Assembly: GCF_000002985.6 (NCBI RefSeq)
Contig: NC_003284.9
Coordinates: forward strand, 6,696,001-6,760,000
Direction of reading: 5' to 3'
Length of the DNA stretch: 64,000 nucleotides
DNA from: Caenorhabditis elegans
Taxonomy: Eukaryota; Nematoda; Chromadorea; Rhabditida; Rhabditidae
In this document: positions 20,358 through 57,600 of the stretch, in pieces
Numbering within the stretch: the stretch's first letter is position 1
Layout: the number at the start of each line of letters is the position of its first letter
Notes under the pieces: model-generated
The model's input: only the letters and a program-made list of their open reading frames with translations
Told to the model about the DNA's origin: nothing
Databases searched by the model: none
Program-made: the position numbers and the translations under genes

Positions 20358-22670
20358 TTAAAAGTATACATCGTTCACAACAAAGGTTTCTGTGATCCAC
20401 GGAGCATCCAGTTCCAGTGTTCTATGAAAATCAAATCCCGGAAGGTTCTGAACCAAGAGATTTAGTCAACGTTTTCTGGGAAAAAAATAAAAAAATACCA
20501 CAGTGTCGTTCATAAGTTCGCAAGCAACCAAACAGTAGATAGCCTAAAATTACACAACTAAAAGTTACTTGAATTTTTGAAAGACAAACCAGATAAAGGA
20601 TAAAAGCAATGTATAACAAAGTAAATGGCCCAATAATAACAAAAATCAGCCAACCAGTGCCGAAATTTTCAGTCACATACTGGAAAATGAAGTACACGTT
20701 GATCCCGATTGTAATAATTCCACAGATAATAGAAAAGTATTGTAGAGGTCTGAAAAATAAAAATTGTTCTAATTTGCTTGGTTTTGTGAGTACTTGGAAG
20801 TTCGAAAATTGTGCATAATCCGCTTACTGGAAGTAAATGTAATCATCGGAATCAATGCAAACGGTAGCTGTACCATTTGAACACAGTTTAGAAAGTCATT
20901 CATACCTGAAAATTAAATTATGGTATACAACTTGTTTTCGATCAAAAGCGGCATGAATCTCAAGAATATACCAAAAATATACTATAGCGACTGTGTTGTA
21001 ACATCACTTTTTGCCACCAGGCAATTTCCAAAGTTGCCTAAAAATTTTTTTCAGCAACCGGAAACTTGATTCCCTGACATTTACCAATTCTTGACTGAAA
21101 ATCTACCTGTCAAATTTTTGATGCCGTGGGCTTTTATGCAGAGGATCAACGTTGGAGTGATTGCAACCGCTCTGGTTATCAGTACACGTTTCCATTTCGG
21201 CCACGAGATTCTCACAAATCCTTCCATCACAAACTGTCCTGTATATGTTCCTGTCATTGTTGATGATTGTCCTGCTGCGAATATGCCAATCGCCCAAATT
21301 ATCATTGCAAATAGTCCAAACTGACATCCCAGGTATATCCCACCCTTGAATAAAAACGTGACATTTGGATTAATTTCCAATCATACTTGAAACAAATCCA
21401 CTGTTACAGATGATGTATTGTTTGGAAAGACGTTCGAATCGGGAATATCATTGTGAGACAGACACATTGAATTCTCAATTAATTTTAAATTTATCATTTG
21501 TTATCAGTTTATTTTTCTTACAACGTCACCATTGGTCTTTTGATAAAGTCCACGTGCAAATACGGAGAGAACAAACAGATTTATAAAAAAACTGACGGAC
21601 AATGCAAACGCCGATTCAATGGAAAAATATTTGTTCGCTTCGGCAATGCGAGTTTTGCTTGAGCGGTCGACTTTTCGTGACTCAAAATCTTAGAATCACA
21701 TAACGTTATTTCGATAGAACTAACCTTAACCAAAGCTGAATGCAAATAAAAATTATGTGGCATTATCACGGCTCCAAAAATGGAAATAGCCGTTATAATT
21801 TCTTCCTTTCCACATCCACTACACCAGGGGACAACAGTACCAGTAAGAACTTTAGTCAACACTGGCTTCATCACAACAAACTGAAAAGCTGAATTTAACT
21901 GGATAGAAAATGATAAATGCTTACTTCGTAACCAAAAGAAATTGCCATTGTAGAAATTAGAGCAACAAATATAAACTCCAGTTTTCGGATGCCATATCTA
22001 TCAATGAACAGAAAAGTGAAAGTATCCAAGATAGTAATTAGAACGCCGACTAATAAAGGAATTCTGAAAATGGAATTTTGTGAAGTTTTCCTAAATTATT
22101 TTCTAGTTAAAATTGATCTTACTTGCCACTGGACAATAAATAAATGGCTATTGCCGTTCCGATAACCTCTTGCATATCACTGCATACAATCGCAATCTCA
22201 ATCATGAGCCAAAGAATGATTCGGGGAACCAACGGATAGTAATCATAAGCAATCTTAATGAATTTACAAAATTATTTTAAAAGTTGAATTATCTACTTCA
22301 GCCATGTGTTTCCCACTGACAACGCCTAGTCTTGCGGACATTCGTTGAAGAAGCATTCCAACAATATGAGACACCAATAAAACCCAGAGAAGTTTGTATT
22401 CAGCTTGAGCTCCAGCCTGGAGATCACTTTCAATGTTTCCTGGATCCAAATACGCAATGCTCATTAGAAATCCAGGGCCAGTAAATGCCCAAAGCTTACG
22501 CCAGGAGAACCATGTATTCTGAGCATTTATGCAAACTGAAATTTGTTTTGCTTGATTTAAAATAATACCTTTTCATCTTCGGGAATTTTTACTGCAATCG
22601 TGTCATCAAACGTTTTTTCTCGAGCCGGGGGAGCTAGATCAGATATGTTAGCGTTTTGAAAACCAGGCAT
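20358..22670 (-). CDS. smf-2: NRAMP-type divalent metal transporter SMF-2
   Basis: Twelve exons keep frame: 22670-22569, 22518-22297, 22253-22123, 22063-21925, 21880-21725, 21680-21522, 21473-21387, 21344-21107, 20905-20794, 20749-20590, 20543-20499, 20447-20358, giving 546 residues. It is an NRAMP/SLC11 proton-coupled importer of Mn2+/Fe2+ in the plasma or vesicle membrane. The TM1 metal motif is DPGN ([11 protein letters not shown]) and the TM6 motif is MPH ([16 protein letters not shown]). The family transport signature segment [13 protein letters not shown] is in exon 8, and there are about 11-12 membrane helices. It is a tandem paralogue of smf-1 downstream on the map: exons 2-10 match it in length, but the last coding exon is split by one extra intron. 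The name smf-2 rather than smf-1 rests on remembered map order next to nas-11. Confidence 0.92.
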
Positions 22671-34195: not shown

Positions 34196-37100
34196 TCACA
34201 TTGGTGTGGACATGATTGCAAAAATGAGAGCCCCATCCAGTGCCTCTTTTGCTCCGAGAGGTCGCATATTTCTGTCGAATTTCCCGTAGAAAATTTTCTC
34301 TGGACGATAAGCTCGAGCAATTGCAGCAGCCAAATTGTTTTTCAGAATGGAATACATTTGAAGAGACATTTCTTGAGCTGGGCTGGATTGAAGAGCATAG
34401 AATTGGAGAGATCGAAGTAACAAGTAATTGGCAGATACTGAAACACCGTCATCTTCGGACATTTGAAGACCCAAAGGAGTGAAGTTCTGCAAAGTTTGAA
34501 ATTGGTGCAAGTGTTTCTGAAAGAAAATTACTTACATTATCTGTTTGAATGTTCTGTAAGAATCTTGTGAGATCCTCAGATGTTTCATTAACTAGCGATA
34601 AAGTGATTAATGCATGCGAGGATGAGTTTGGTTTGAACTTTCCCTAAAAAATAATGGAATTATTCAAAATAACTACCGTATATTCTCTATTAGTGCTGCA
34701 TCTCCAGTAGTACTGCAGTCTCTATTAGTGCTGCATTCAAAACAGGTCCGAAAAATAGTGCTGCAATCTCTATTAGTGCTGCACCCCATTTTCTATTGAA
34801 AGAGTCACTTGACAGTTTCGATATTTTTGGGTATTTTTTTGCATATTTTTGATGATTTTTTAGTAATTTACGAAAGTAATTGAATTATTGGGTCTTTTTG
34901 TTACAAAAGTTCGCAATTTTTATAAATTTCTGCTTAAAAAAATGAGCTTTTGTGACTAAAACTAGTGATCTATAATTGAAAATAGCCGTTCGAAAATAGA
35001 GAATATACGGTATTTTAAAAAACATATTTTTCGAATTACTAACAGTTTCCAAATCTCCATATTGCTGCAGTTCCTTGTTCCAATATTTGGGCAGAGCAGC
35101 TTCAAAGTCAAGATATCTTTGCTGCCATTTGGAATCATATTCATCAACTCTCTCATAAACCTTGTTCATAATGCGACACATGTCCCCAATCAGGCAAAAC
35201 AGTTCAAACGAAGATTCTCCCGTTTTTGTAGCTGGCTCCAGTTGAAATATTCCTCTAGAATGTCCCATCCACTTCACATCCAACAGTCTTCCGGGCCCAA
35301 TTGAGTTTTTCCAAGTATTTTCAGCAATATACTCAAGCTTTTCGATAAATTGGTTATCTTTGGTTATGATTTTGGGTTGCTGAAAGTAGTAAAATTAATA
35401 TATTATAAATGTTATTCAATAAATATAGTATTGGAAAAACACCAACAGTTGACAGAGCTTCCTTGACTAATTGGAAGAGAAGTGGCGACTGAATTTTTTC
35501 CAACACAATTCCAGCTTCAGAAAATCGATTTCCCATATATCCCAGCTCATTGATCGTGCTCATCCAAGAGTTTAGAATCTAAAAAATTATTAAATTCCCG
35601 TTATACTTCGTTACATTTTAGTGATATAATAAAGAAAGTATTTGCTTGATCTGATAATGATTTTTACAATAGTTGAAACATTTGGAATATAATAGTTTTT
35701 AAAAACGCTCTGAAACTTGAAAACATCCGGAAAAGCATTGCAAAAATTTGTGAGTTTATTTTTATCGCCCTTTAAATTATTTGATACTTATATCAATGTT
35801 CTAAATCTAATAGGCTTAAAAACTTACATTCAAAGTATCAATATGGTTTAGTTTTAGTAATGTCATCAGTGGAAAAACTTGATCATCAAAACTCGTAAAT
35901 CCCTCGTTGCGTGATTGAATGAAAAACATGGTTTGATCCACTGTGAAGTTTTCATACTGACCAATCAGTTTGGCGCTTGGAATGAAATTCAAGCTATTTG
36001 CCACGTACGCATATGCATATTCCATAATTTCCAGGTACGCTTTTGGAAGACGCTAAAATTATTGAAACGTAAATAAATCAATAAAAGTGTTTGAAACCTC
36101 TAGAAATTCTTTGGGAACCAATATATTTACACCGTCCAACCATGAATTAGCAATTGACTTAATTTGAGTATCAATATCTTTTTCGCTCGAGAACGCCTGA
36201 AAATTTGAAAAAATAATCTTATCTTATCAACAAAACCTACCGTTCCATTTTCACTTGGGAATGAGAAGTATTTTCTTGAACCTGATTTCAACGGAATTTT
36301 CAAAATTTGGTCGTCACCTCAAAATACAAAGAAATTAACACAACGCTAGGTAACATTTTACCTTGTGAAATGACAACTGTAAGATTATCACTCGATCTGT
36401 TTGGTGCACTTCCAAGAGAATCAATCACTACTGTGATACTTGAGTTAGCGTGGAAAAAATAATTGATTCCCACGATTAATTGATTGTCTAAAACATGCGT
36501 TTTCATTTAGAAAATTTCAACATTTAAAATGCATTGCTTACATTTAAAAGTAAGTTTTCCACCGTTAAAAACTACCGGAATTCCATTTTCAATTGTCTCA
36601 AGTTGATTGGGGAGTATGGTCTGAAACAAAAGATTAGTTGCAAATTGAAAATTGATATTTCAAACTCACAGTTCCATTTTTCTCAATCGAAAAAGTTATG
36701 AGATTTGTTGCGGGATTACTAACGTGAATGAAATTCAAGATATAATGACTATTTACCACGTTTCGTAGGCTCTGAAAAGTTAAAACTTTATACTCTAAAA
36801 TGTTAGAAATCAATAATTTTCATAATTTTCAAACAAGAAATACTCACTGACGAACTGTCGGTCTTCTGATTGAATGGGAATAAAAACGTTTTCTCCTGCT
36901 GAGGCGGAATAACATACTTAATCCGGTACTTTTGAACTCCGTAGCTGCCCGCAATAGATATCACAATGCCTTAAATAATGAAAGCTTTAGATTCAACAGA
37001 TTGTCTTTAACATACCAACTGCTACGACAGCACTGACAATGACAGGCATATTTAGTGAGAGAATATTTGAGTTCATAGAATTTACCGGTTTCTTCTGAAA

Positions 37101-38813: not shown

Positions 38814-39159
38814 CGTAATTTTTTTTAATTTTTCTGTGGTTTTTTTGTTGAATTTTACAAGAAATAATTAAATATTAATATAAAACGTGTTTTTTGTGTT
38901 GTGATTCGATAAGGAGTTTCCCGATATTCTGAAATAAAATTAATTGTTTTTAATTGATAGTCATGTTTTCTCACCGATTAGCTTCGAAAATCCTTGATTT
39001 TTCTGTTAATAACCTGAAAAGGGAGCGAAACGGGTTGAAAAAGCTTAAACGGGAAACTTCTCCTCGAATCACAACACAAAAAACACGTTTTATATTAATA
39101 TTTAATTATTTATTGTAAAATTCAATAAAAAAACACAGAAAAATTACAAAAAAAAAACG
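38814..39159. repeat. Large inverted repeat with 110-bp arms
   Basis: Left arm 38814-38923 and right arm 39050-39159 are near-perfect reverse complements (shared core AAACGTGTTTTTTGTGTTG), separated by 126 bp. The single strand could fold into a long hairpin. Probably a palindromic repeat element of the kind spread through nematode genomes. Confidence 0.85.
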
Positions 39160-39300: not shown

Positions 39301-42300
39301 TTCTCATCTTTGGATAAACACGTAATATGTTTTGTTTAATACAATAATTCAAAGGTAATGTTTTTTCTAATTAGTTTCAGTTTTAATCAATTGTCCATGA
39401 AAATATAGTACTTTATGTTTACATTTCTCCTTGTATTTACTGTCACATCTGTCACTTATTTACCGATAATGATCACCTTATTGGGCTTCAAAAAAAAACA
39501 TTATATTCCCTTCCGATTCTTGCAATATTTGGCAATTACCTTAACCCTCCCTGTGTCACAGGCTAAGCACCTGACACTGTCACTTGCAATTGCCTCTGAC
39601 AAAACTCGTTCTATTTTCAGCCCTTCAGCAAAGTTATTTCTGTTTTTCAATTGGAAAACAAAAACAAAAACGCGTGGTCGCAAAGAATTTCGGAGTAGCC
39701 ACACAGATTCGTTGTTTGTGTCCATGTGATTTGTACTTGAAATTCTCAGTTATTCGTCTTTCCCTGGTTGATTCTGGATGGACAAAGTGCAAATGTCTGC
39801 TGAGTCTTCACGTGTTTTTCCTGATCATCACATGTTTTTCTGTTATTTTTATAGATATAGTCTAGGATTTTGGAGGTTTCTTCTTCTTCTCCAGACGAAT
39901 ACAACCAAGTGGGCAAAGTTCAACTTTTTATGTGTATTTGCCATTGAAGCACGATGAAGCTCTAGGTTTTTTTTGACGCAACACAGTGATCTATCTAATC
40001 TAGTTGGGCACATTATTCAGAAAACCAATAATTGCAAGTTTGAGATGATATATGTGGTCCAGCTTTTCCTATTAAGGTCCGAGGAGGTTCCTTTGATCTT
40101 CCCTCTCACAAATCATGACAATATAAGCATTGAAGAGAGGAAATTGAAAAAAGTAAGAGAAAAGGAAACCAAAGGCTCAACTTCCTTGTCCGTTAAGAAA
40201 GTGTTCTTATTTTTTACATAGACAGACCACTGATCACGTCAACAAAAGATTATGCACATTCAAAAACATGGTTTTGTTTTCCTGAAATAACCTATCTGCA
40301 CTCTAAAAGGTATTTCCTTGTCATATTGATATTCCAGAGTACCAAAGTTCCAACTTCATTTCGTTTCAACGAAATGTTATCTGATGCTCGTTACTAAAAA
40401 ATTTTGATGGTCAGTCGGGGGAACCCCTCGCCTTTGTTATCTCAATGATAACAACTTCTGCTGATAGCGATATTTGGTAAGATAGGAGACGTCTCCTCCT
40501 CACCACAGGGAAACCCTTCTTTTCGTTGCCGTTTCCTGTCTCAGCACTGACATCTGATGGAAAACAGCCAGCTACACCAGAACGAAAATGGCGGAATCAT
40601 GTGAATCGGACGATGTGTCTCTCATTGTCCTTTGTCACGATTGAAAGTGGTGCCAGGGACTGGTCTAAACAAGGAAAATCAGTACATAGTACAATGTGTC
40701 ACACACACCCACACACGTCCTTGTCTTTCGTCTTTGATTCTGGCCCAACAGCAGCTGTTTAAGCAAATTGGTTTCATGAGAAGATAAAAAAAATGAATGA
40801 TGAAGAATGTTGATGATGAGATTGCGTCACGTTTCTTTGAAAAAGACTAGTATTCGCCTTAAAAGAGAGAAGCTCTGATTGAATTTCCTATTTTCTCGAA
40901 TGACTAGACACTCAGACATATCCAATGAAACATTTATGACGGAGGTCTTTTCCCGTCGAGCTGTTCAAACATCTCAGTCAAAAACTAATAATGTTATTCG
41001 GCAATAAAATGTTTTGTTAACACAGATTAATAGTACTTGTGCGACTAGAATTTAAATGTGTTTTTTGTGTTTTTCAACCTGACATGAAAACGAGTTAATA
41101 CTGTCCCCCACATCAAGAGGTCCCCGCATTTCTTCTGCATTGTGCCCCGTCCCCTGTCACCACTTCGGACGCTCGGCGACGATAACGACTACAACACGAA
41201 AGAAGAGACCTCCGGCGCCTTGTTTTTTGTTGTTGTCATTCTCAAGTAGTAGCAATGCTTCCATGCTTGAACGAATCAGCTGTTGGCCAAGTCACAAACA
41301 AATAAACAAGCCCTATGGGAAGCACAGACAAGCGAAAAGACATATCCGTCTGAGAGTCCCATTCCTACTGTACATTTTTCCGACTAAAATTGGAATGAAA
41401 TCTTTCACTCTTAGTTCCTTTCCTACGGATGACGACGGATCAAGGTTGGGGGAAAGAAAGTAGAAGGGAGTGGACAGTTGAGATGTCTAGACCAACATTC
41501 CCATTTTCATACACTTGGCTTCCACGTGACCATCTGCGCGAAGGATGAGAAATAAGAAGATGTGGAGGGGACGGAAATCTCGTTTGCATCCTTTCTCTCT
41601 CTCTCTTATCCAAAAACCGTACCAGTGTTGTTCGACGGTGCGTGTCTTTTTATCAAATCTCTCCTGCAGCGAAGAAATGAGATGAATAATTTTGATTGTA
41701 TTCATGTTGCGCTATACACCACTATCAGGCGCGCATGCATGGGATGCACGTGCGCCAGCAGATGGGACAAAGTCCACGCGACAACGGAGATGGCGGACGG
41801 AAACGTGAGAAAATGAGAAACGACGTCACACAAGAAGATACTCGACTGCGGGCGCCCCCATTGATTTTTCTCTCTAATTCTCTTAGTATCGGTACATTGT
41901 GTACCGATATACACATTTAACGATGGTTCCTCCACAATGTCTGCAAACATATGATGGGTTTGGGGCAAAAATAAACACTTTGTATGAAAACTAGTTGGAA
42001 ACTGTAATACTTCGTACTGCGAGACCAATAGTGTTGTCATGAAGTTGACGGTGTTTGAAAATTTGAGGAAATGAAAATGTCACGTGTGTACAAAAACTGA
42101 AGGAAACATTTTTAAAAAAATTTTATGTTTTCATTATTTCTAACTTCTATCTTCTAACATTACAGGAAGCTTTCTAGAAGAAAAATGTGATTTTAGTAGA
42201 ATCACGAGTTAATGTTTTAACGTGGTACGTGTGTAGTAGCGATATCCAAAAATGATTCAATTCAATTTATTTGCAAGATTACTGTTTTAAACAGCACGTA

Positions 42301-44515
42301 ACAATCACGATTTTCATTTTTAGGAACCGAAAACATCATATCTAAGCGTTTTGAGGATATGACATCTTCTACACCAGGGCCTAATTTTCATACCATACTT
42401 TGTTTCCAAATGACAATATTCTATAATATTTTGTTTATAGACCATTGCAAAACTGACGGAATATTATACTTTGGCCTGGACACCCTTCTAACTTTGTTTA
42501 TATTTTTGAACACCAATGCAGCGGGTCTGCACATTCGCATTTTCGAAGTGTGCTAGTGGAAAAAAGAGAGAAAGAGAATGTCTAAAGATCAGCAGACGAT
42601 AAAAATGTTTTTGATTTTTCTTCGCCCTGCAATAGCGCCGGGTATTCCCTTTCATTTCAAAACAAGGAAATACAGGTATTGAGGCGAAGTTTGTGTCAAA
42701 CGTCACTTTGCATTCCGAGTACTCTTTTTCCAAACACTACACTCTACAGGGAATCACGTACTGCCATGTTGGCCGGTTCAAACTTCACTTTCCCCTTTCT
42801 TCCATTCTGCGGTTCAGGAAACACTCTATCATACCTCTTCAATTTTTAACGGCGACTGAACTGAACAAAAGTTGTCACGAGACTGACGCAAAACTGACCT
42901 TATCAAGATTCTTTACCAGAAACGCATATACGTATATACAACTTAAAATCTACTAACTTCCTTGGTTTTTCCCAACAATAATTATCACAAACCAGTGCGA
43001 TCAAACGCAAAGAACACTTGATCAAACTCATGGTTTCCTTCTGTAAAAACCAAATTTGCGTACGTTTTTTGATCGTCGGCCGATTGAAAAGGTTTCGGCA
43101 AGCAATTTTGGTTAGAATAAAACATCAATTCGTTCACCTGTACTGCCAAACACGATACAATCACATGAAGCCGTGATTGGTACAAAATGGAATTTAGTTA
43201 TACGTATGCGCAAACACGAGTGGAATCAAGTCACGAGATTGACAATGATGCCGACGACGGAAACGTCGGTGTTGAAAATGTAAAATCTTCTATTTGTCAT
43301 GTCAACAGTCTTCCGCACTGGAAATTCACGTGAAACTAATAAGACATTCATAAACTAGTACCCATATTTTTTTGCCAATCAATCACGAAATATACAGTTT
43401 GTGTTTAAGTTAAAAATCTTTCGTAAATATTCAACTTTTTTTCAGATTTTCGAACAGGTTTTCGAGGAAATGTTTTGCAGGGAATTCCTTTTCATCACGT
43501 TTATCTTCGCTTTTCTGTTTTACTCCATTGTCGGTAACCCCCATGCAAAGCTGCCCGGAGAACGACCACGTTTCTTATCAATCGTCGGCACGTGTAGTTT
43601 GCAACAGCGACATTTTGTCCCTGCTCGTTTTGTTTTAAAACTCAATAGATTAGAGAATTTTTGGAACCAAACTTTACTCCCAAAAATCTATTTCGGTTGC
43701 ATTCCTTATCCATGGTCCACACAACTTTAGAAAGCATTCTCATTTTCTCGCACACGCCTCGATCCAATTAGTGTGTAGGAGGAAGGGAAGATGCGTGCCT
43801 TTTTGTCCATGCTCCCGCTGTCGTCGACGACGATCACACAACATGTTGCAAAAGTGAAACTAGGGACTGGACAATTAACTTCATGCCCAACATCCCACAT
43901 AGTCTATATTATAATCCAAACTAAGGTGCAAAGTTCTTGGAGCCGTTTCCGTCAATATTATTAATTGAGTTTTCAATGTTCAGCGAATAATAAATCGGAC
44001 GATCAAAAAACCACTTGAATGACCCCTCTTTGAGTACTTGATGCAACGTACACTGGGATGACGTCTACACTTACAAACCCCAAAACTATTAATCCTTTGA
44101 TGTGCACCCTGTTCGTTCGTCGTAACGTCCGTTGTCTTCCAACACATCGACCACCACTACTTGCATAATAAGTAGGGGAAACCCAAATTGCGGCTCCCTT
44201 CTCTCCCTGGGCGGCCATCCTATTTTCACTGACAACCGCCACGGAACGACTGGCCTACACCAACGAAGATTTATTCATTTCCTGTGTTATATCTATGGGT
44301 GGTCAATGGAATGTGAGAACAGTCGGCTTCCCTACTAAATTCACCATTTCGTTTGCGCTACGTTGGCAGTAAAATAAAGTATATATATTCTCCGATGATG
44401 CCATCCAGCGACAACAAATCGACGATGGGAACACCCGTGTCGGCACACGAGCGCACAAACAGCATCGAACGGATGAAGGGGAGCGTGTGTATATGTTTGT
44501 GCCAGTCAGCTCTTA

Positions 44516-44526
44516 CCCCCCCCCCC
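44516..44526. repeat. Run of 11 C
   Basis: An uninterrupted 11-C tract in the region upstream of mdl-1. The complementary G-run could form a quadruplex only if combined with other G-runs. Confidence 0.9.
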
Positions 44527-46485
44527 TCGTTTTCTCCATGTGAAGACCACACAACAGCAGTCATTGGAGCGAGCGGCTTCAAAAATAACTTTGCTCGAAT
44601 CGGGATTAACTTGACCACTCTATCTGTGCGGGTCTCATCAATAATAAAACAAAACATACGCCAAGGGACCTTGAAAGATGCTCGACCGAGACTAAGAGGG
44701 CTCTCTTCTGCATGCAATGAGTGTTGCGTGGTTTTTTGCTCGAGGCCCCGTTGGACTTCTCTTTTTCCCGCACGCATATAGACACACTCAACCAATACAC
44801 ACATACACGCGCGCCAGTCGAAGCGGTCAAAAGATCGAATTCTCAGAGCACGACGGAGGCAAGCTTTCGGGAGCCTTTTTCGATTAAAGGGGAAGTTGGA
44901 AGTATATGTGAATGCAAGTTGCGTGCTGCTCCAGTATTTTCAAACTTTGGCACGTACTCGGCTGTGTGACGAGGGCTTCCCCAAGAAATTATGGCTCTTC
45001 TTGAACCCTGCTCAATAACGGAGGTATCAAAAGATCTAGGAATGGGGCAAAGTATTCTGGCAAAGGAGTGTTCCAGAAAAAACACGTGGTACACAAAACA
45101 ATATAAACAAAACATTTCCTCTTATTTTCGCCCGACAACAATTTCTCGTGATCAATGTATTTTCTCTCGTACTCATCGATCAGGAAAATCGCAACAAGTA
45201 CCGTGTGTATGAGAGAGTGTGACACAGAATTGCCAAGCTCCTGCACGTGAGGCTTCAAAATCACGGCGGGTACATAGTTTTGTTACGGGACCCTTTGCCA
45301 CTTTCACGTGAACTATTTTTGCGTTTTTGCAACTGGAGACATCGATGCAGGAAGTCCGGATAGCGAAAAGATCATAGTATTTCGTAAGCGTCAGTAATGT
45401 GAAGTGACTCAATGTTGGGGAATTCCACATGTTGAACCGCAAAGGACGTTTCGCAAGAATAAGAACTTGAATTAGTATTACAACTTCATGCTCCAGTTAG
45501 CAATATCGCAATGATTTTAACATCATTTTCTAGAAAAAAAACATAACAATCTCAATGTTCTAATATTTTCGCAAAATATGATTTCAGTACATGAGTTTGA
45601 AAACAATTTGTTCACAACATCTTCTGTGACTTCAGCCATCATATCGTCATCTACTTGACAAGCACGACAATACAACTTTCACAAAATTGAAGACACGTGA
45701 TGAATTGTAACCGGCGAATATTGTCGGATTGCAACCGTCACATCAAAATCACAAGACCTAATGACATGTTCGGAAATACCTATCCAATGCATTGCATGTG
45801 AGGAAATTCACGTGGGTATTCCCCGATTCCGGCGGCAGTACGCTAGCGACTCGCAAATTACTTTAGACGGTAGCGGCAGCGGACATACCGCGACCCCGTT
45901 CGGTATTAATCGCATCTCCGATCATATATTTGCTGCTCTTTGTACCTCTCTCCATTTTTGCAAAACAAGACGGAAATAAAACCGCGCGCAAACAGAATCG
46001 CCGATCTTGCGATTTTGCTGTCTGATCGAGAAGAAAATTCCATATTAGGCTACCACCGCGTGTGTCCCGCGCGGACGCAAAGCGGTTGGGGGCCAAGGTG
46101 ACTGTGTGAAGCGAAGAGGGGCGAAAACGAGGTCTTGCGCTGTTTGCGTGCGCAGCCCAAAGCAATGTGGTTTACCCCCGACGCAATCGGAGACCTATCT
46201 TGCCACAGCAAGTTCATGCGAGGCGCACGTGCATACACACACACTACCTCTCGCCGTCTGCCGCCTCTTCGGTGCTTTCCTAGTTCGTTCTCTGATGTCG
46301 TGTCCCGCCCTGCATATCGTCTCTCCCAGGGCCCTCCCCTACGTCGGGTTGGTTGACGCTCCCCACCCCTCGTTCCTCCTCCTACTTCTCCTGCGCCTCA
46401 GTCTGGACGCAAAACGACCCGCCAGAAAGCATCCCATTTTTTGTCGTACCCTCTAACACGCCCCAGTTGTTATTCCTTGTTTGCA

Positions 46486-47669
46486 ATGGAACAGCAACTC
46501 AACCTTGGACATCTTCTCACCGCCGCACGTCTTTTAGACATTGGCGCTCTTGACATTTCTTCCCTAGATCTGGGAGCACTTACCTCCACATCTTCCTCTC
46601 CAGGATCTTCCTCACCAGCTATGTTCGATCTTTCAAATGGTAAAGACATGACATTTCGTAATAGTCTTAGTAACTGTTTTTATTTCAGAGTCCGAACTCC
46701 GATCACTTTTCTGTGGAAAACTAAAAGTTGACAAGAAACAGTCATCGTGTGCATCCAATGCCTCTACATCATCTCAACCCTACTGCTCCTCCCCACCAGC
46801 TAGAAAATCTTCGAAGCACAGCCGGACGGCACACAACGAGCTTGAGAAAACCCGCCGAGCTAACCTCCGAGGATGCCTCGAAACTCTCAAAATGTTGGTC
46901 CCATGTGTCAGCGATGCCACCAGAAATACGACGCTTGCACTGTTAACACGAGCCCGAGATCACATCATTGTAAGTTTCATCCACGTGCGTCTAGCGTGTT
47001 ATCATTGTCGTGTGACAATACCATCCTTTCTCTCATTTCTCTCACTATTTACCACCTGGTCTCGTGACTCTAGCCAGTCCTTGTTTCGTTTCATGAAGAT
47101 GATGCAAAGTGCCTTTCTTTTCTGTCCCGTTTTCCAATTAGTCCCACTACTCCCACAACTTCCGAAAAAAAAGAAAGAGAGAGGATGAGAAGTAACTTCA
47201 ACAATAATTGTATAGTTATTTCCAATTGGGTTCAATTATTAATTAATTTTTTTTGCAGGAATTGCAAGACAGCAATGCAGCTCAAATGAAGAAGCTTAAC
47301 GATTTAAGAGACGAACAGGATGAACTTGTTGCAGAACTTGCCCAACTTCAAGCCGACGAAGAAGTTGCTCAAGCAACTAGCCAAGCTTGCCAAACGCTTT
47401 CACAAAGCAGACCCGAATCTCGAGCATCTTCTTTCACCTCCACATCTTCTCGCGATTCACCCTGCTACCTGGAGTACTCACCATCAAGCAAACCAATGGA
47501 TTCACATAAGCCAACAATTATCGACCTTTACGCTGAAGGCCTTATCCCAAGGGGTCCAATCACTTTTCCAAGACCTCTGGTCTACCCTCATAATGTTTTT
47601 GATCTCATGAATCTTCCACCTACCCCATTTGACGTGTCGCAGTTCTTGCCAATCAACCTCCAAGTTTAA
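46486..47669 (+). CDS. mdl-1: Mad-like bHLH-zipper transcription factor MDL-1
   Basis: Three exons keep frame: 46486-46639, 46689-46969, 47259-47669, giving 281 residues. The N-terminal helix [14 protein letters not shown] resembles the Sin3-interaction domain of Mad proteins. The basic region has His100, Glu104 and Arg108 (HNELEKTRR), the triad that reads CACGTG. The helix-loop-helix runs to about 146, and the leucine zipper is [20 protein letters not shown] and beyond. The C-terminus is rich in Ser and Pro. MDL-1 is known to pair with the Max-like MXL-1 and repress growth-related targets. CACGTG sites lie upstream, in intron 2 (46982) and downstream. The gene is convergent with abts-4. Confidence 0.97.
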
Positions 47670-47879
47670 TGATCTATCCACTTTTGACTGTTATTTCTCT
47701 GAAGAACATTTCTTCTCCTGAAACCGATTCAATAAGTTACCCCCGTTTGCGTGTCATTGTTTCCATTTTTGCCTGAAATTCTCATCTGCTCTCCTTCCGC
47801 CAATTCTCATTCTCAACACTCTCACAATCCATTCGCCTTGCACTCATCAGCCAATTTAATTATTACCTAATATAGAAGT

Positions 47880-47885
47880 AATAAA
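47880..47885 (+). terminator. mdl-1: Poly(A) signal of mdl-1
   Basis: AATAAA 211 bp after the mdl-1 stop codon in an AT-rich 3' flank. Confidence 0.55.
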
Positions 47886-50189
47886 CATTTTTGCATTGCA
47901 ACTATCATATGGTTATCTTCATCTTCAGTCTAGATTATATTTATAAAGATAGCACACCTTCCGTATCTTTCTCCGTCAGATGATCGCATCAGTTGGAAAA
48001 AGAAAAGGGTGAACCCAACCGCAGCCACATGTTGATCACGTGTCGCCGATCAGTGAAAAAGAATCGTCGGGCGTGTGGATCGTGTTGTAAATAGCCTCGC
48101 TCTCTTTACCCACACAGTCTCACACATTATTTTGATAGTCGTCAATCGTACTCATTCTTCTTCCAATGTGACCATCTTCTCGTACGAAATCAAATCTTCT
48201 TTGTGTTTCTACCGTCATTGCATTCAGAAGTACATTGAATAGTCATTCAAACATCTGCTACTGCTCCTTCCACCTTTTTCTCATCTTTTGTTGGCATCGA
48301 GTATCCAAATTGCGAAGAAAAATGAATCACCATACGTGGAAGTATTCAAAAGTATGCTAGAATGTAGTGTAGTGTTTTTTGAAACGTTTCCAAACTGCCT
48401 TTCTCAAAGAAGAAAAAAGTGAAAAGGTTAGCGTTGCACTCAATTGATCAGTCCAAAAAAACGGAGCCGCGCACACGCTTGAGTTGCTCAGTTTTAGACA
48501 ACTTGAAGACAGAAGAAGAAGGAAAAGTTCAGGGATCACTTGAAAACTCACGGACTTGGTATGAATTATTACGTTTAAATTACTGTGCTAACGACTTTTT
48601 TTCATAGTGGTTTGAGTTTTCTGAACAGAAAGTTTTCAAAGGACACATGGGAAACCCCGGCAAATCGTTATCAACATCGATCACTTCTATAGATTCGCTA
48701 TCACAGGCCAGTTCTCCGCGTGGCGGTGTCATCATCCAAACTACCTAGGGAAGGTATTTCTTACGACGGTTTTTTCAAACCATCGGTCATTCGACGACGA
48801 TAAAGTTTGTACTTGATTGATAAGAGTCTGTGAATTGGTTTTCATTGTGCAACTCAACGTTCACCACTTTGTATACGTTTATTCTTTGTTCAAAAGATCA
48901 AACAACGTTCGAGAAACAGAAGCCAGCGTGGGCATCGCTGTCAGTGGGAGTGTCGGTGTCACAATCCCCGGATGCGTCTCATTTTTCTTTTTCCAATTCA
49001 ACATTTCGTTCGAATGCTCTCAAGAAGCTAGAAGGCAGCAACGGGCGGCCCGCCATAGAAATTCGCAACGTTTTCAACGATGTCTGTGGGATCTTGCACC
49101 TCCGCAAAAGGCACAATGTTTCACTTGCCCGGAAGATCTATTTCGATTGCATCATTATTTCAAAGGCGGGTCCCTTCTCGGTCTAGCTGCACAAGGGGCA
49201 CGCACACAAAGAATAAATGCAGCAAACGCGCGACGCTGTCATTTTTTTTCTCAGCGATCGAAAATCTAAACAAGGCTCTTTCTCGACTCTTTCGCTATTT
49301 CTTTCAGCTCCGAACAAGAAATAGTGTCGATGCACTTGAGTGACGGAGCTATAGAGTGAATGAGGAACAGAAAACATAGCCGAGCTCTTTTAAAAAGGTC
49401 AAGGTCGTGTGTGAGCAAGAAGGAAAATGTCTTTCCTGCATTAAAAATGAGTTCAAGGATGTGCAGGGTGTACAAAGAATGCAGAATCTATTTGTCCGTC
49501 ACCTCGTAAAACTGCTGAATCCCCCTCCAATTCTGCCTGTTCTCTTGATCTTCTTCCTTGGGGGAAAACGAGGAAGAAAAAGAACAGATATCAACTGGGC
49601 CAACACTTACTGGAGACGATGAAAAAGATGAACGTCACAGAGATCAAACGCTTCGCACCCAACGCAGCAGCAAGGGATATCCTCCGTGATTATTTCTTTA
49701 CTTTTTGTTTCCGCCTGGCAGTGATTATTGCACACGAGAAAAACATGTGCCGTCAAAAAGTCGAGTGGTCATCGGCCCCAGTATCGGTGATCAGTGTAAT
49801 TGTGCTCTCGGTTTTCCCATGGCAGACGCCAATTCATGTTTAAAAACGACTTGAAAAGTCTTCCAACATATTGGGACATCACAGAAAAGATGCACAAATT
49901 GGCATCAAGTTCAAAAACCAGTTTCTCTCAGAAAACGTGTGCAAAACTCCAAAACTCAACTTTTTGATCATTTGAACTACAAGTTTTCGATGCAGGTTCA
50001 GGTGTAGAAATAAGCTAAACTTAGAAAAAAATGGCTGATAAAGTTGGAAAGACTTATTATTTATTCATTCGCAACATTTTAATTCGTGTGATGCTTGTTT
50101 CCGTGCAAAATGGTTTTTTCAATGCTCAGTGCTACATCGAATGTCTGTTATAATCAAACTTTTAACACGCTTTATGGATGAAGTGTGAT

Positions 50190-51630: not shown

Positions 51631-54600
51631 TTATACCGGGATGCGAGTATTCTGATAGAAATCTTCGGGGTTTTCTTCATTGTCCCTGTCGGCATCATCA
51701 TTGTCGTGATCTTCGCTATCAAGCTGAAATGCACAAAAATTGTAATTTTTCATCAATCACATGTTGTATTAATTCTATGATTATTTAATTCTGATATATA
51801 AAAGTTGCTTTTTTTGCGAGTTGGACTTTTCATCAAACAAATGTCTGACCCTGTCTAGATCCCTTTCCACAGCTCGTTTCTATGTTTGTTCGGCATATCA
51901 AAACAACCAAAACACACAATCACTTTGTGTACCATCATTTCATTTTCTCATTTTCCAACTGATATCATTGATAACATCATGAGTGTCTAAACTACCAAAG
52001 ACTGTCACAATTGTTGTTTTCTTGTTATGGCATTCATATACATACACGCGACAATTTTTGAAAGGGCGTCATGTACACGGTTTTCTTGTTGCAATCAACT
52101 TCACGCCAATCGTCTGTCACACATGAGTCACACACTTGGAGTGTCCCAATTATTTTCCACTCGTCACCACCACCTCCCTCGCTTTTGCTTTAGTTACAGT
52201 GACTCACAGACGGAGCGGCGTTTTTGGTCGACACAAAGTCAACACTTCGATAAATATAGGAAGGGGGTCACAAACACCGCGCACGCGGTTTTTCACGGAC
52301 ACACGGTTTGCACGGAAACGCGGGGGAGCAGTGGAGCAACAAAAAAATAAATAGGGGGTTTTTAAGATAAATGTCTTACCGCTTCTAGAAGTTCCTTGTC
52401 GAAAATAACACTGAGTCCATGTTTCACAAATATGGCGTTGGATACAATAAAGAGTGGGAAGAGAAGGCCACCAACTGAAAAATGTCTCATTTTAGATGTT
52501 TTGAGGTGGAGTAGCGCCAGTGGGAAAATTGTTTAAACCCATTCATGTAGTGCCAAAGAAATCAAATATTATAGTAAACCTTTTCAAAATTTGTTCGAAA
52601 ATTTTGTATTGACAGTCAAAAAGTGGGAATTACTGAGTTTTATCTACTATTTGAGAAAACTATAAGGTGTCTGGATACAGTGTCTGGTGAAAATATTTGA
52701 AGCATAAGTAAAACATAAAATTCGGAAGTAATTTTTTTTGATTTACGAATTCCAAAAAGGGGCAAAAACTAAGTAATTAACACTTTTTTACTGTAAGTAA
52801 AAATTTTTCGTTTTTACTACAGTATTTGGTCATTTAGGCAACATGAGAGTGGTTGGCAAGAATTTAGCCACTGGCGGCACTAATCCAGCTTTAAAGCTAA
52901 ACATTTTAAAGTTACGAAAATCACAAATATTTCTTACTTTTACTAGATTTAGCCGCAAACATTGCACCAGCGATCAGGTATTGGATGACAGTGTAGATTT
53001 GGATAGTATAGAACGGTGCCTGGAAAAATTGTTTTTGAATATCATATTTTGTTAGAATTTAAGAGCCCATGCTTTTCATATGATTCTTGTGCTATAATTC
53101 ATGTGATTCGTAGGGTTTTTGATCTGTTTTGGCACTTGGGGATCTACAATAAACAAGTTGAACTTTAGCATAACAGTATCTATCTGTGTCTCTTCTGTAG
53201 CAGCTAACACGGTGCATGTGATTTTGTGATAACACGGTGCATGTGATTTTGTAAAACGGAAATCACTTTTTTCAGTTTTACTTTGTCCTCTCTCTTCCCC
53301 CGCGTGAGTGGTCAGCCACGATTGATCAGCGAATTGTCTCCAGTTGTCAATGAAGCAGTAAACGTGCCCGTCGGGCAAAAAAAAATCGTCAACCAGCCCG
53401 CCACAAAGCGACAACGTGACTCCACAAAACAATGATGCAAAAAGATCCGAGGAAACCCATTCTACCCGACTACACAATATGATAACCGTCATCTTTGTCT
53501 ACTGTTCTCTTGCTTTTGCACGTGCCTGTTTCTCGCCACGGTCCGATGTACGGTCGTGTCATCGTGTCACCAAAATCGTCTACTAACAACAACTTTGTCC
53601 GATGATTCCTTTTTTGCTAAAAGGTGGCGGAATAGAACAGGAAAAGGAAATGAAAGAATGGGACAAAGAACACGTTTAGATAACACCCCTACTTCTAGTA
53701 TTTTCTTTAAAAGAGGATGCTTTTCACATGACGAAAAACAACCAAAGGTCATTTCGTCATATTTTTGTGATGAAAAAAGTCTGCCTCAATGGTATTACCT
53801 GAAGTGATCAAGTATCACAGTAACTACCATAAGATCAAACTAATCAGCGCCACGTGAACTGGAACAACTATCATTATACTGGACAGATCAGTGCTGCATG
53901 TCATCAGATCACCCCATTTCGTCAGATAAGACAAAAGAAAACTTTCCTTGATCTACAGTTTGGCACGTCTTCCATCAAAATTTTTACGAGAAACAAAAAA
54001 CCGAGGAGAATATCCCAACTTCTCAGATTTCTTTGACGTATGTAGTGAGAAAGAGCACACATTTCAAAAGTAACTATATATTTACTCTAAACGTCTACCG
54101 AATCGTAGCAAATTACATTCGAATAGTGGAGTTGTATTCTAGATTATCTATACTGAAATTCAACTGTACACTTGATCAAAACATCAACACTTTTATATTT
54201 ACGTTCATTTTTCAATGCTATTTGCTCCTCGAGGCAATGGAGGCAAGCATGTGAAACGCACATGAGAAAACATAGACCCACGTGTGGGTGCGTCCGTCCG
54301 CACACAAACATACAACAGAGAATGATCAGCAAAAAGTGTGTGTGACGAAATGGGGGAGAATTTTTGAAGAAAAAAGCATTGTATTTTCAGAGATCGCAGA
54401 CATTTTGCGCCCCTCTACAGTTTTGGTTGCTGACGAAACGAGACAAGGAGAAAAAGGAAAAAGGGGGCAACCCTTCTCCGCAGAAATAGCAGCAGCATTT
54501 CATCAAACAATCGGTCGCGTGGTTGCATGTCAACTGGGAAATACTAGCAAAAATGTCACGCAGCGCTACAGTACTCTGAATGGAGCTTGAACAGAACTTA

Positions 54601-57600
54601 TACCTTGAATGAAAAAATTGAATCGTAATTAAAAACATTTTCAATCAAAATTTTGATTAATTTTCAAAATATTAAAAAAAAAGGAAAATAGAAAAATTTC
54701 CAGCTGAATATTAAATGCACTTATATGCCTAAATAAAATAACCAACACATAAGTTGTAGAAAAATGTGTTGGTCTGCAAAAATAAGTAACTGCCATTTTT
54801 GGCTGCCAATAAACAATTTGGAAGAATTTTGAATAATATTAACTATAATATTTTAATTTTTCAGTATATTAGCACTATAGGAATGATTTTAATACATCTC
54901 TCTACAGGCGATATCCGCCTTTAATTCAAAAATTGGCTCAATAAATTTGAAACATTTTTTACAGCATTACTTAGAACTTGTGTATTAACTCATTTATGAA
55001 TAATTTCAACACATTTCCAAGCTCAAAAAATTAAAATTCATACCAAGTTCAACTTAAATAAACAAATGAGTTAAAAATTTATTTTTAGAATGTCTTGGTA
55101 ATATAATTACTGGTTTTTTTACAGAGCAAACTAATTATAAAATTTTCAAACCTAAAGTGTTTTTGTCTCTAATGGAAGAATCAAACTTGCATTTAATTTG
55201 ATTACATTCAAAAACTGTAAAAACAAAATATTTTTATGAATTCATTGAATATTTTTTCTCTGTTTTTTTTTGCAGACACTACACGCCTCATTCCTACACT
55301 GATTCTTTAAAGCTTATGACGTGCATACCAGTTTCGAAACACTACTTCATCGTTTTTTACCCTCAAAGTTCAAAGCAAACACCAACGAGTTACAAACTCA
55401 TTGTTGCAAAGGATACAGTCAATAGAGATCAGATCAGTGAAGATTGAAAATCAAACTGCAAATTTTTAGAGAACTCACAATTTCAAGGAATTTGTGCGAT
55501 CCACGGTATTTGCTGGGTAGGAAGCACAACTTGAGACGAAGGATCATCTTACTTCCCTCCAAGTTACGAACTCCAAGATAGAAGAATACACCGAAAATTG
55601 TGGCAGCAGGAATTGCAAGAAAATGTCCAAGAATGGCAAATGTGCCAAGCAAGAGGTAGGTGACCATTCCGGAAACGCGTTGTTCAATGACATGGGAGAT
55701 TCCTGAAATAATACATTTTCATCGGTAACGTTGTTTTAACTCACTATTAGTTATAAACTTAAGTACTTAGGAATTTGAATTTTAATCTATTTTCAAGTGT
55801 CACAAGTTAAAAAAAAGATATATGAAAAAACTCACTAGACGGGACTCCTGGTGCAGATTTCTTGTATTCAGTCAAAGAAGTGATATGAGCCAGAGATTGA
55901 ACAGCGGCAGGGCACATCCACGGAAGACCAAGAACAGAACTAACCAGTGTGCAAAATCCAACAACAATCAAGTCCCAATGAAGGCCACCTCCTTTTTTCA
56001 GTTTTCTACCCTCTCGCAATGCCATCTGTTCGGGGATTTCAGTTTCAACAAAAATCAAAACAAAAAGCAGTATAGAAGAAATTAAAGCAATTGTAAGTGT
56101 ACTAGCAGTAGGAGGGGCAGACGGGATAACAAATATTCCGTCGAAAGGTCGGGATTGTCCCACCGCGACCGGTATATCGACCACCTGAAAATTAAAATAT
56201 CGCTTTAGAATTTCTTATAAACTAAGTGAATATAATCAGGACTGTTTGGGAACCGGCAACTCAACTTTCTCAACTAGTCAATTTTGCCTGAAAAAAATTC
56301 AGGCTGTCTGCAAGGCGCAAATATCACACTCTAAATTAAAAGGTGACTATTCCGCAATAAAACAATAATTACCGGTAGCCAAAAAAGTTGTAGAATTTTT
56401 GACAATTTTCACAATTGAAAATTGTAGTTAACGTACAGCCCTGGTGGAAAATTTTTTATCAAGAAATACTCAAAAAAACTCCAAGGGTTCAGCGGATTAC
56501 GGTCACTAATACTTGTGATATAAAGTGGGAGTTTATATTCAAAAAAAATCAAAAATGGCGAAAGGGCTAGTAAATTACTAATATGTGTACGAAATACTTT
56601 AGTGAAGAAAATAATTTCTTGTGTTTCTTGACAAAAACATTCACCAAAATGTAGAAGGTTTCAAATTAATTCAATGATTTTTAAAGAATGATTTTTTAAA
56701 AATTAATTTCTTACCGCGACGCCGACATTTTGGAAAAGAATGCGGTAGGCAATGCTGACGGCAATCACGGCAAATATTCCTCCGAAATTTTTGCAAAGGT
56801 TTCGGAACTGAAATGAATTGCATTTTGAAACGCGATTATTAAAATTCTTCTTACAGTTCTTCCGAAGAATGTGCTTCTGCTGACTTGTCTCAAGTAATGA
56901 AAAATGGCAATTGAAACAACCACCATAATCAATTGAAGCAAGAAGGTGTTGGGACGACTCAATGCACAGTCTTTGACTGAAAACTACAGTATTTAAAAAA
57001 TCCCGTTAATTGATAAACCTTCAGTAACAGTGCAGTTTGCGGCGTTCTCAATGTAGTATTTCAGATTCTCAATACTGTTGTGCTCTTCTTGCTAAAAAAC
57101 TATTTGCTAACTTAATTTCGTTTATACTCAAACTTACGAGGTGGATAAATTCAACAACTTCTGAGAAGAAAATCAAAGAGATGAGAGCGCAGAAAATGTC
57201 TTCCGTGTAAATCGTGACATAATGAATCAAGTGAGCACAGTTTGTTGCAGCCCCGACGATGGAAATGAAGAAAAGAAAAATACCAGTGTAAAATCGCACT
57301 TCCAGAAAATCCATGTCATTTTGATCGGTGAACTGAAACATTCGTATAGAGACGAAAAGTATTGGAATTTATAAAAAAGTTGTATACAGCTTGAATATTT
57401 GGGTTGCTTTATTAAGTTGAAAGCTGAATAAGCAAAAAATGTATCGATAAATTCTGAATAACATATCTTGGAAAACAATCATGAAACTTTAAAATTTTAA
57501 TTTTAATAGTAAAAATGATCTACTTCAGAAATCGGATCAAAAAACCTGCCCCTGAAACAGAAAAGTTATTGCAAATTTAAGACAGTTGAATACCAGCAAA

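Follow-up and report, generated by a model that had tools for sequence, protein, structure and literature searches.

We analysed a 64 kb stretch of Caenorhabditis elegans DNA (NC_003284.9, positions 6,696,001 to 6,760,000 of the forward strand), referred to below as the window and numbered from its first base. It includes a dense cluster of perfect CACGTG sites around mdl-1, the gene for a Mad-like protein, and this cluster is real and goes beyond local composition. The sites probably wire mdl-1 into its own regulatory network. We put at about even the chance that this homotypic cluster is an extended Myc/Mondo/Mad control region, at which MML-1/MXL-2 probably activates and MDL-1/MXL-1 probably competes and damps. 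To our knowledge, C. elegans is an animal without Myc.

By direct count, the window holds 19 CACGTG sites, 14 of which lie inside 39,809-48,042 and seven within 45.0-47.0 kb. This recount agrees with an earlier note on this DNA, which had reported 14 sites in 8.2 kb around mdl-1 with seven in 45.0-47.0 kb. The same note took the preceding 39.8 kb to be free of the word, and here it was mistaken, as a single site lies at 21,551. Twelve of the 14 cluster sites are 5′ of the mdl-1 ATG, where they are spread over 6.4 kb and fall into a distal six and a proximal six:

39809..43594, no strand assigned: distal upstream group of six CACGTG (starting at 39809, 41523, 41747, 42081, 43327 and 43589), located between 6.7 and 2.9 kb before the mdl-1 ATG
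45083..46231, no strand assigned: proximal upstream group of six CACGTG (starting at 45083, 45244, 45305, 45694, 45809 and 46226) within 1.15 kb, from 1.4 to 0.26 kb ahead of the ATG
46982..46987, no strand assigned: CACGTG in mdl-1 intron 2, beginning at intron base 13
48037..48042, no strand assigned: CACGTG 3′ of the mdl-1 stop codon, by direct count

The sites at 43327 in the distal group and 45305 in the proximal group both read TTCACGTGAA.

The gene inside the cluster is mdl-1, as the earlier note had named it, because the sequences of four published mdl-1 primers occur in the window without a mismatch (PMC3969279) and because the spliced frame encodes a Mad-like protein with a His-Glu-Arg triad. 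Three coding exons, for which the splice signals were chosen by eye, are joined to give a protein of 281 residues:

46486..46639, plus strand: mdl-1 coding exon 1, start of the 281 aa spliced frame
46689..46969, plus strand: mdl-1 coding exon 2, with the basic region of the basic helix-loop-helix (bHLH) domain and its His-Glu-Arg triad (Pfam HLH at 43.6 bits, scored on the open frame that includes the exon)
47259..47669, plus strand: mdl-1 coding exon 3, the zipper part of the spliced frame through the stop codon

The triad had also been claimed beforehand, and H-x3-E-x3-R can be read in the basic region of the spliced product, giving it the bHLH with a His-Glu-Arg basic triad by which Mad/Mxd bHLH-zipper proteins are recognized. 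The product aligns to the Mad protein of solved structure 1nlw_A with an E value of 3.1e-15. Judged by its sequence, it is a Mad-like protein with the right DNA-contact residues for CACGTG.

Comparison of the count with local composition, a check that had been set beforehand, placed the cluster beyond expectation under all models save an order-4 Markov model. Dinucleotide shuffles of the window (n=100) gave 7.49 ± 2.78 CACGTG with a maximum of 15, and none of the 100 reached the observed 19. For the cluster interval, where 14 were observed, the dinucleotide model expects 1.71 and the trinucleotide model 2.44. GC-matched tiles, few of which were GC-rich, gave 1.77 (with four 1 kb tiles at 45 % GC or above) and 2.38 (with 11 tiles, each 500 bases long, for the 50 % bin, and bins lacking tiles assigned an assumed 0.3; Poisson P 2e-7). 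When the window was shuffled in 1 kb blocks, which preserves local composition (n=500), the best 8.2 kb anywhere held a mean of 3.3 and a maximum of 10 sites, the best 2 kb a maximum of 5 against 7 observed, and the whole window a mean of 8.0 and a maximum of 18 against 19. The excess is six- to eight-fold over the dinucleotide, trinucleotide and GC-tile expectations and four-fold over the average for the richest 8.2 kb in the block shuffles. Hence, composition as the whole cause is ruled out by the dinucleotide, trinucleotide, GC-matched-tile and block-shuffle tests, and the region has the motif density beyond composition that characterizes homotypic clusters, with no block shuffle of 500 reaching 14 and the order-4 model alone dissenting.

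Counts within fixed bounds gave the same picture upstream of the gene, with 12 CACGTG against 1.71 expected in the 10 kb before the ATG (P 3e-7), six against 0.55 in 2 kb (P 2e-5) and three against 0.30 in 1 kb (P 0.003). Between the mdl-1 stop codon and 55,433 there are four against 1.23 expected (P 0.04). The whole genome contains 17,714 CACGTG in 100,286,401 bases, or 1.45 per 8.2 kb. In 23 random 10 kb genome stretches (230 kb) there were 38 CACGTG against 22.5 expected from dinucleotides, and the word is therefore mildly over-represented genome-wide; the richest of these stretches held six, and no 2 kb held more than three. A negative binomial fit to the 23 stretches, which is rough and ignores overlapping windows, expects about 0.02 tiles of 8.2 kb with at least 14 sites in the genome. 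Comparison regions around two other bHLH matches, which we take to be hlh-30 and mxl-1, had one CACGTG each per 10 kb, so the cluster is not common to these two.

The excess is also specific for CACGTG. Ranked by over-representation among 2,080 hexamers, this word comes first both within the cluster and across the fixed 10 kb before the ATG. Inside the cluster the nine other CANNTG words show no comparable increase: the top ratio is that of CACATG (8 against 4.9 expected), and CAAATG (4 against 8.6) and CAATTG (1 against 4.3) fall under expectation. Nor is there a comparable increase for the other palindromes centred on ACGT (GACGTC 3 against 1.6, AACGTT 0 against 3.6, TACGTA 2 against 0.9), and ACGTG without a C in front is found 13 times, compared with 14.2 expected for all ACGTG. 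Only five of the 15 ACGTGA words inside the cluster lie outside CACGTG, against 4.6 expected. The pattern is that of a homotypic cluster, in which one motif is raised instead of all related words. Generic E-box enrichment, or hypoxia-type ACGTG/GCGTG enrichment outside CACGTG, was not seen in the cluster. Multiplication of the sites by a repeat that carries them was rejected, as 39.5-48.5 kb contains no direct-repeat family of at least 18 bases (12-base seeds, ungapped); one imperfect 22-base inverted pair (41,555-41,576 and 47,429-47,450) is without CACGTG. A second, low-complexity signal comes from words like GAGAGA and AGAAGA, which are over-represented in 39809-48042 and also in the 10 kb upstream; ATCTTC is over-represented in 39809-48042 as well. 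TTGCAA occurs 11 times in 39809-48042 against 4.5 expected.

Published work connects mdl-1 to one pair of factors in particular. In germline-less worms MDL-1::GFP is raised in a manner dependent on mml-1/mxl-2, their longevity requires mdl-1, mdl-1 depends preferentially on mml-1/mxl-2 and less on hlh-30, and CACGTG is stated to be bound by Myc/Mondo complexes and by HLH-30 (PMC4804169). Elsewhere, mdl-1 serves as a readout of MML-1, and when hxk-1 or hxk-2 is knocked down nuclear MML-1 is lowered and mdl-1 falls (PMC12339002). Because these genetic data make mdl-1 dependent on MML-1/MXL-2, direct action of MML-1/MXL-2 is the likeliest route. Nuclear MML-1/MXL-2 probably binds the upstream CACGTG sites and raises mdl-1 transcription, and MDL-1/MXL-1, as a reader of the same word, probably competes for the sites and would damp its own gene. 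We infer the occupancy of the sites, the identity of the bound dimer and the feedback; the competition by MDL-1/MXL-1 is plausible from the DNA-contact residues. Among the readers that the earlier note had proposed, MML-1/MXL-2 thus has independent genetic support (PMC4804169, PMC12339002), whereas HLH-30 is less favoured (PMC4804169).

Several points weigh against an extended Myc/Mondo/Mad control region. The ends of the 39,809-48,042 interval are defined by the sites themselves, which is why the counts within fixed bounds were made. The order-4 Markov model expects 10.35 sites in the cluster (P 0.16), so that chance is not rejected by it; we discounted this result, since over 8 kb the model is largely trained on the very sites in question. 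Across the 10 kb upstream the second-ranked word is ACGTGA (19 against 5.1 expected); ten of the 19 are CACGTG half-sites and the other nine lie outside CACGTG, so that some contribution from a related word is possible in that stretch. A search of 39-49 kb for perfect E-boxes paired as CACGTG N5 CACGTG gave none. Dependence of mdl-1 expression on MML-1/MXL-2 can be indirect. Six of the CACGTG sites are 2.9-6.7 kb from the mdl-1 ATG, whereas MDL-1 chromatin immunoprecipitation (ChIP) peaks are reported to lie mostly between -700 and +100 relative to start sites (PMC3974684). Lastly, 22 % of all genes are reported to have MDL-1 sites upstream (PMC5015929), and a peak at mdl-1 would therefore not be specific by itself. 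The modENCODE collection includes ChIP-seq data for both MDL-1 and MML-1 (PMC5131338).

Alternatively, the cluster might be functional with a different bHLH factor as its main reader, HLH-30/TFEB or MXL-3 being the foremost candidates, and the dependence on the Myc network might be indirect, though we consider this unlikely. MXL-3 is a bHLH factor that binds CACGTG, and a flanking T is preferred by dimers of the TFEB type over those of the Myc/Max type. The earlier note had drawn attention to the extended form TCACGTG, and this form is indeed present on at least one side of nine of the 14 cluster sites, and on both sides of two. Its over-representation is weak, with T preceding CACGTG in 11 of 28 cluster half-sites compared to 8,340 of 35,428 (23.5 %) genome-wide (one-sided P 0.046, uncorrected); this enrichment is marginal and too weak to choose a factor. 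The ten-base consensus of the TFEB/HLH-30 coordinated lysosomal expression and regulation (CLEAR) element is GTCACGTGAC, and its perfect form, to which the search was confined, is absent from 39-49 kb. The word itself is stated to be HLH-30-bound (PMC4804169), and one figure legend labels it as a predicted site for HLH-30 (PMC3606163), but hlh-30 matters less to mdl-1 than mml-1/mxl-2 does (PMC4804169). HLH-30 is a possible reader, less favoured than MML-1/MXL-2.

Similarly doubtful is the view that many factors bind this GC-rich regulatory region, that some unknown sequence bias produces the CACGTG excess as a side effect, and that most sites are idle. The GC content does reach 57 % in 46.0-46.5 kb, and CpG observed/expected is 0.93-1.57 over 41.5-47.0 kb, although it is lower, at 0.59-0.85, over 39.5-41.5 kb. 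The words like GAGAGA and AGAAGA are likewise raised, the order-4 model does not reject chance, and several factors have been reported at the mdl-1 promoter, namely DAF-16 (PMC3969279), DAF-16 together with PQM-1 in modENCODE data (PMC5131338) and DAF-3, which is reported to bind and repress (PMC3974684). The fold excess over composition given above is nevertheless left to be explained, and GACGTC, AACGTT and TACGTA are not comparably raised.

A more elaborate form of the preferred reading, and a speculative one to which we give somewhat less credence than to either of these, is that the 12 upstream sites form a shared switch, with the activator MML-1/MXL-2 and the repressor MDL-1/MXL-1 competing site by site, and that a graded-to-threshold negative feedback would set the Mondo/Mad balance. 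Closed-loop autorepression would have MDL-1/MXL-1 bind the cluster and thereby hold down its own gene, MML-1/MXL-2 having no direct part, and is improbable. The His-Glu-Arg triad, the alignment with Mad and the density of CACGTG around MDL-1's own gene would suit it, but the MML-1/MXL-2 dependence is left without a direct path, and the accessible literature, outside which most subscription journals lie, yielded no account of MDL-1 bound at mdl-1 or of changed mdl-1 expression on loss of MDL-1.

The literature on DAF-16 bears on the same promoter. The published amplicon lies in the gap between the two upstream groups:

44522..44577, no strand assigned: DAF-16 ChIP-PCR amplicon, primers matched exactly (PMC3969279), between the distal and proximal groups

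The DAF-16 binding element (DBE) is GTAAACA, and 39-49 kb contains one, at 39,416. DAF-16 was reported to bind the mdl-1 promoter and activate mdl-1 (PMC3969279), whereas another study saw no change of mdl-1 mRNA in daf-2 and a three-fold increase in daf-2;daf-16 (PMC3974684), and the two papers thus give opposite signs for the action of DAF-16 on mdl-1. Mad was also reported to oppose longevity (PMC3974684), in conflict with the requirement for mdl-1 in germline-less worms (PMC4804169), and the sign of the network is therefore unsettled.

The recognized neighbours of mdl-1 are both on the opposite strand:

34196-34531, minus strand: glycosyl hydrolase 63 exon fragment (Pfam), upstream of mdl-1
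55434-56214, minus strand: HCO3- transporter family exons (Pfam PF00955), downstream of mdl-1

Pfam was run on ten of the 61 open reading frames in the window, two of which lie between 35,394 and mdl-1, both without a match; as only these two were searched there, an unrecognized gene or upstream exon may lie in that interval. For RNA genes, Rfam at the gathering threshold gave no matches in the window and ARAGORN (bacterial settings) no genes. Three more CACGTG sites are found at 53,519-54,284, between mdl-1 and the bicarbonate-transporter exons, and near them a perfect tandem pair of a 23-base unit, with starts 25 bases apart, occupies 53205-53252. An inverted repeat at 38814-39159 has 110-base arms that are 86 % complementary and 126 bases apart. 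It has at least seven genome matches, including both of its own arms and a similar arm pair on a second contig (C3) near 1.394 Mb, and it therefore looks like a low-copy inverted-repeat element resembling a miniature inverted-repeat transposable element (MITE).

No published description of this CACGTG cluster was found in the accessible literature, and the route from MML-1 to mdl-1 is not described in the text seen of the two MML-1/MXL-2 papers (PMC4804169, PMC12339002). The cluster makes a testable prediction at mdl-1, and its dense perfect sites are a concrete, editable target for learning whether MML-1 acts directly on mdl-1 and whether this gene is under feedback from its own product.

Homotypic binding-site clusters of transcription factors occur in animal enhancers and promoters. 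The mdl-1 control region resembles them in having many perfect copies of one word while related words are not comparably raised, and differs from those contained in one compact enhancer in the upstream spread of its sites, which here are known from sequence. The carbohydrate response element (ChoRE) of ChREBP/Mondo consists of two E-boxes five bases apart, an arrangement that the mdl-1 region lacks. The gene is itself named among those dependent on MML-1/MXL-2 (Mondo/Mlx) in C. elegans, and MML-1/MXL-2 reads E-boxes, though a site cluster at mdl-1 is not mentioned in the text seen (PMC4804169, PMC12339002). As for autoregulation, a product with CACGTG-reading residues and its own gene ringed by CACGTG recall a known behaviour, while differing from it in that neither binding nor feedback at mdl-1 was found in the accessible literature. 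Negative autoregulation is known for Myc/Max/Mad-type bHLH-zipper factors. Overall, the cluster is an ordinary, known kind of regulatory feature, unusually dense, at mdl-1.

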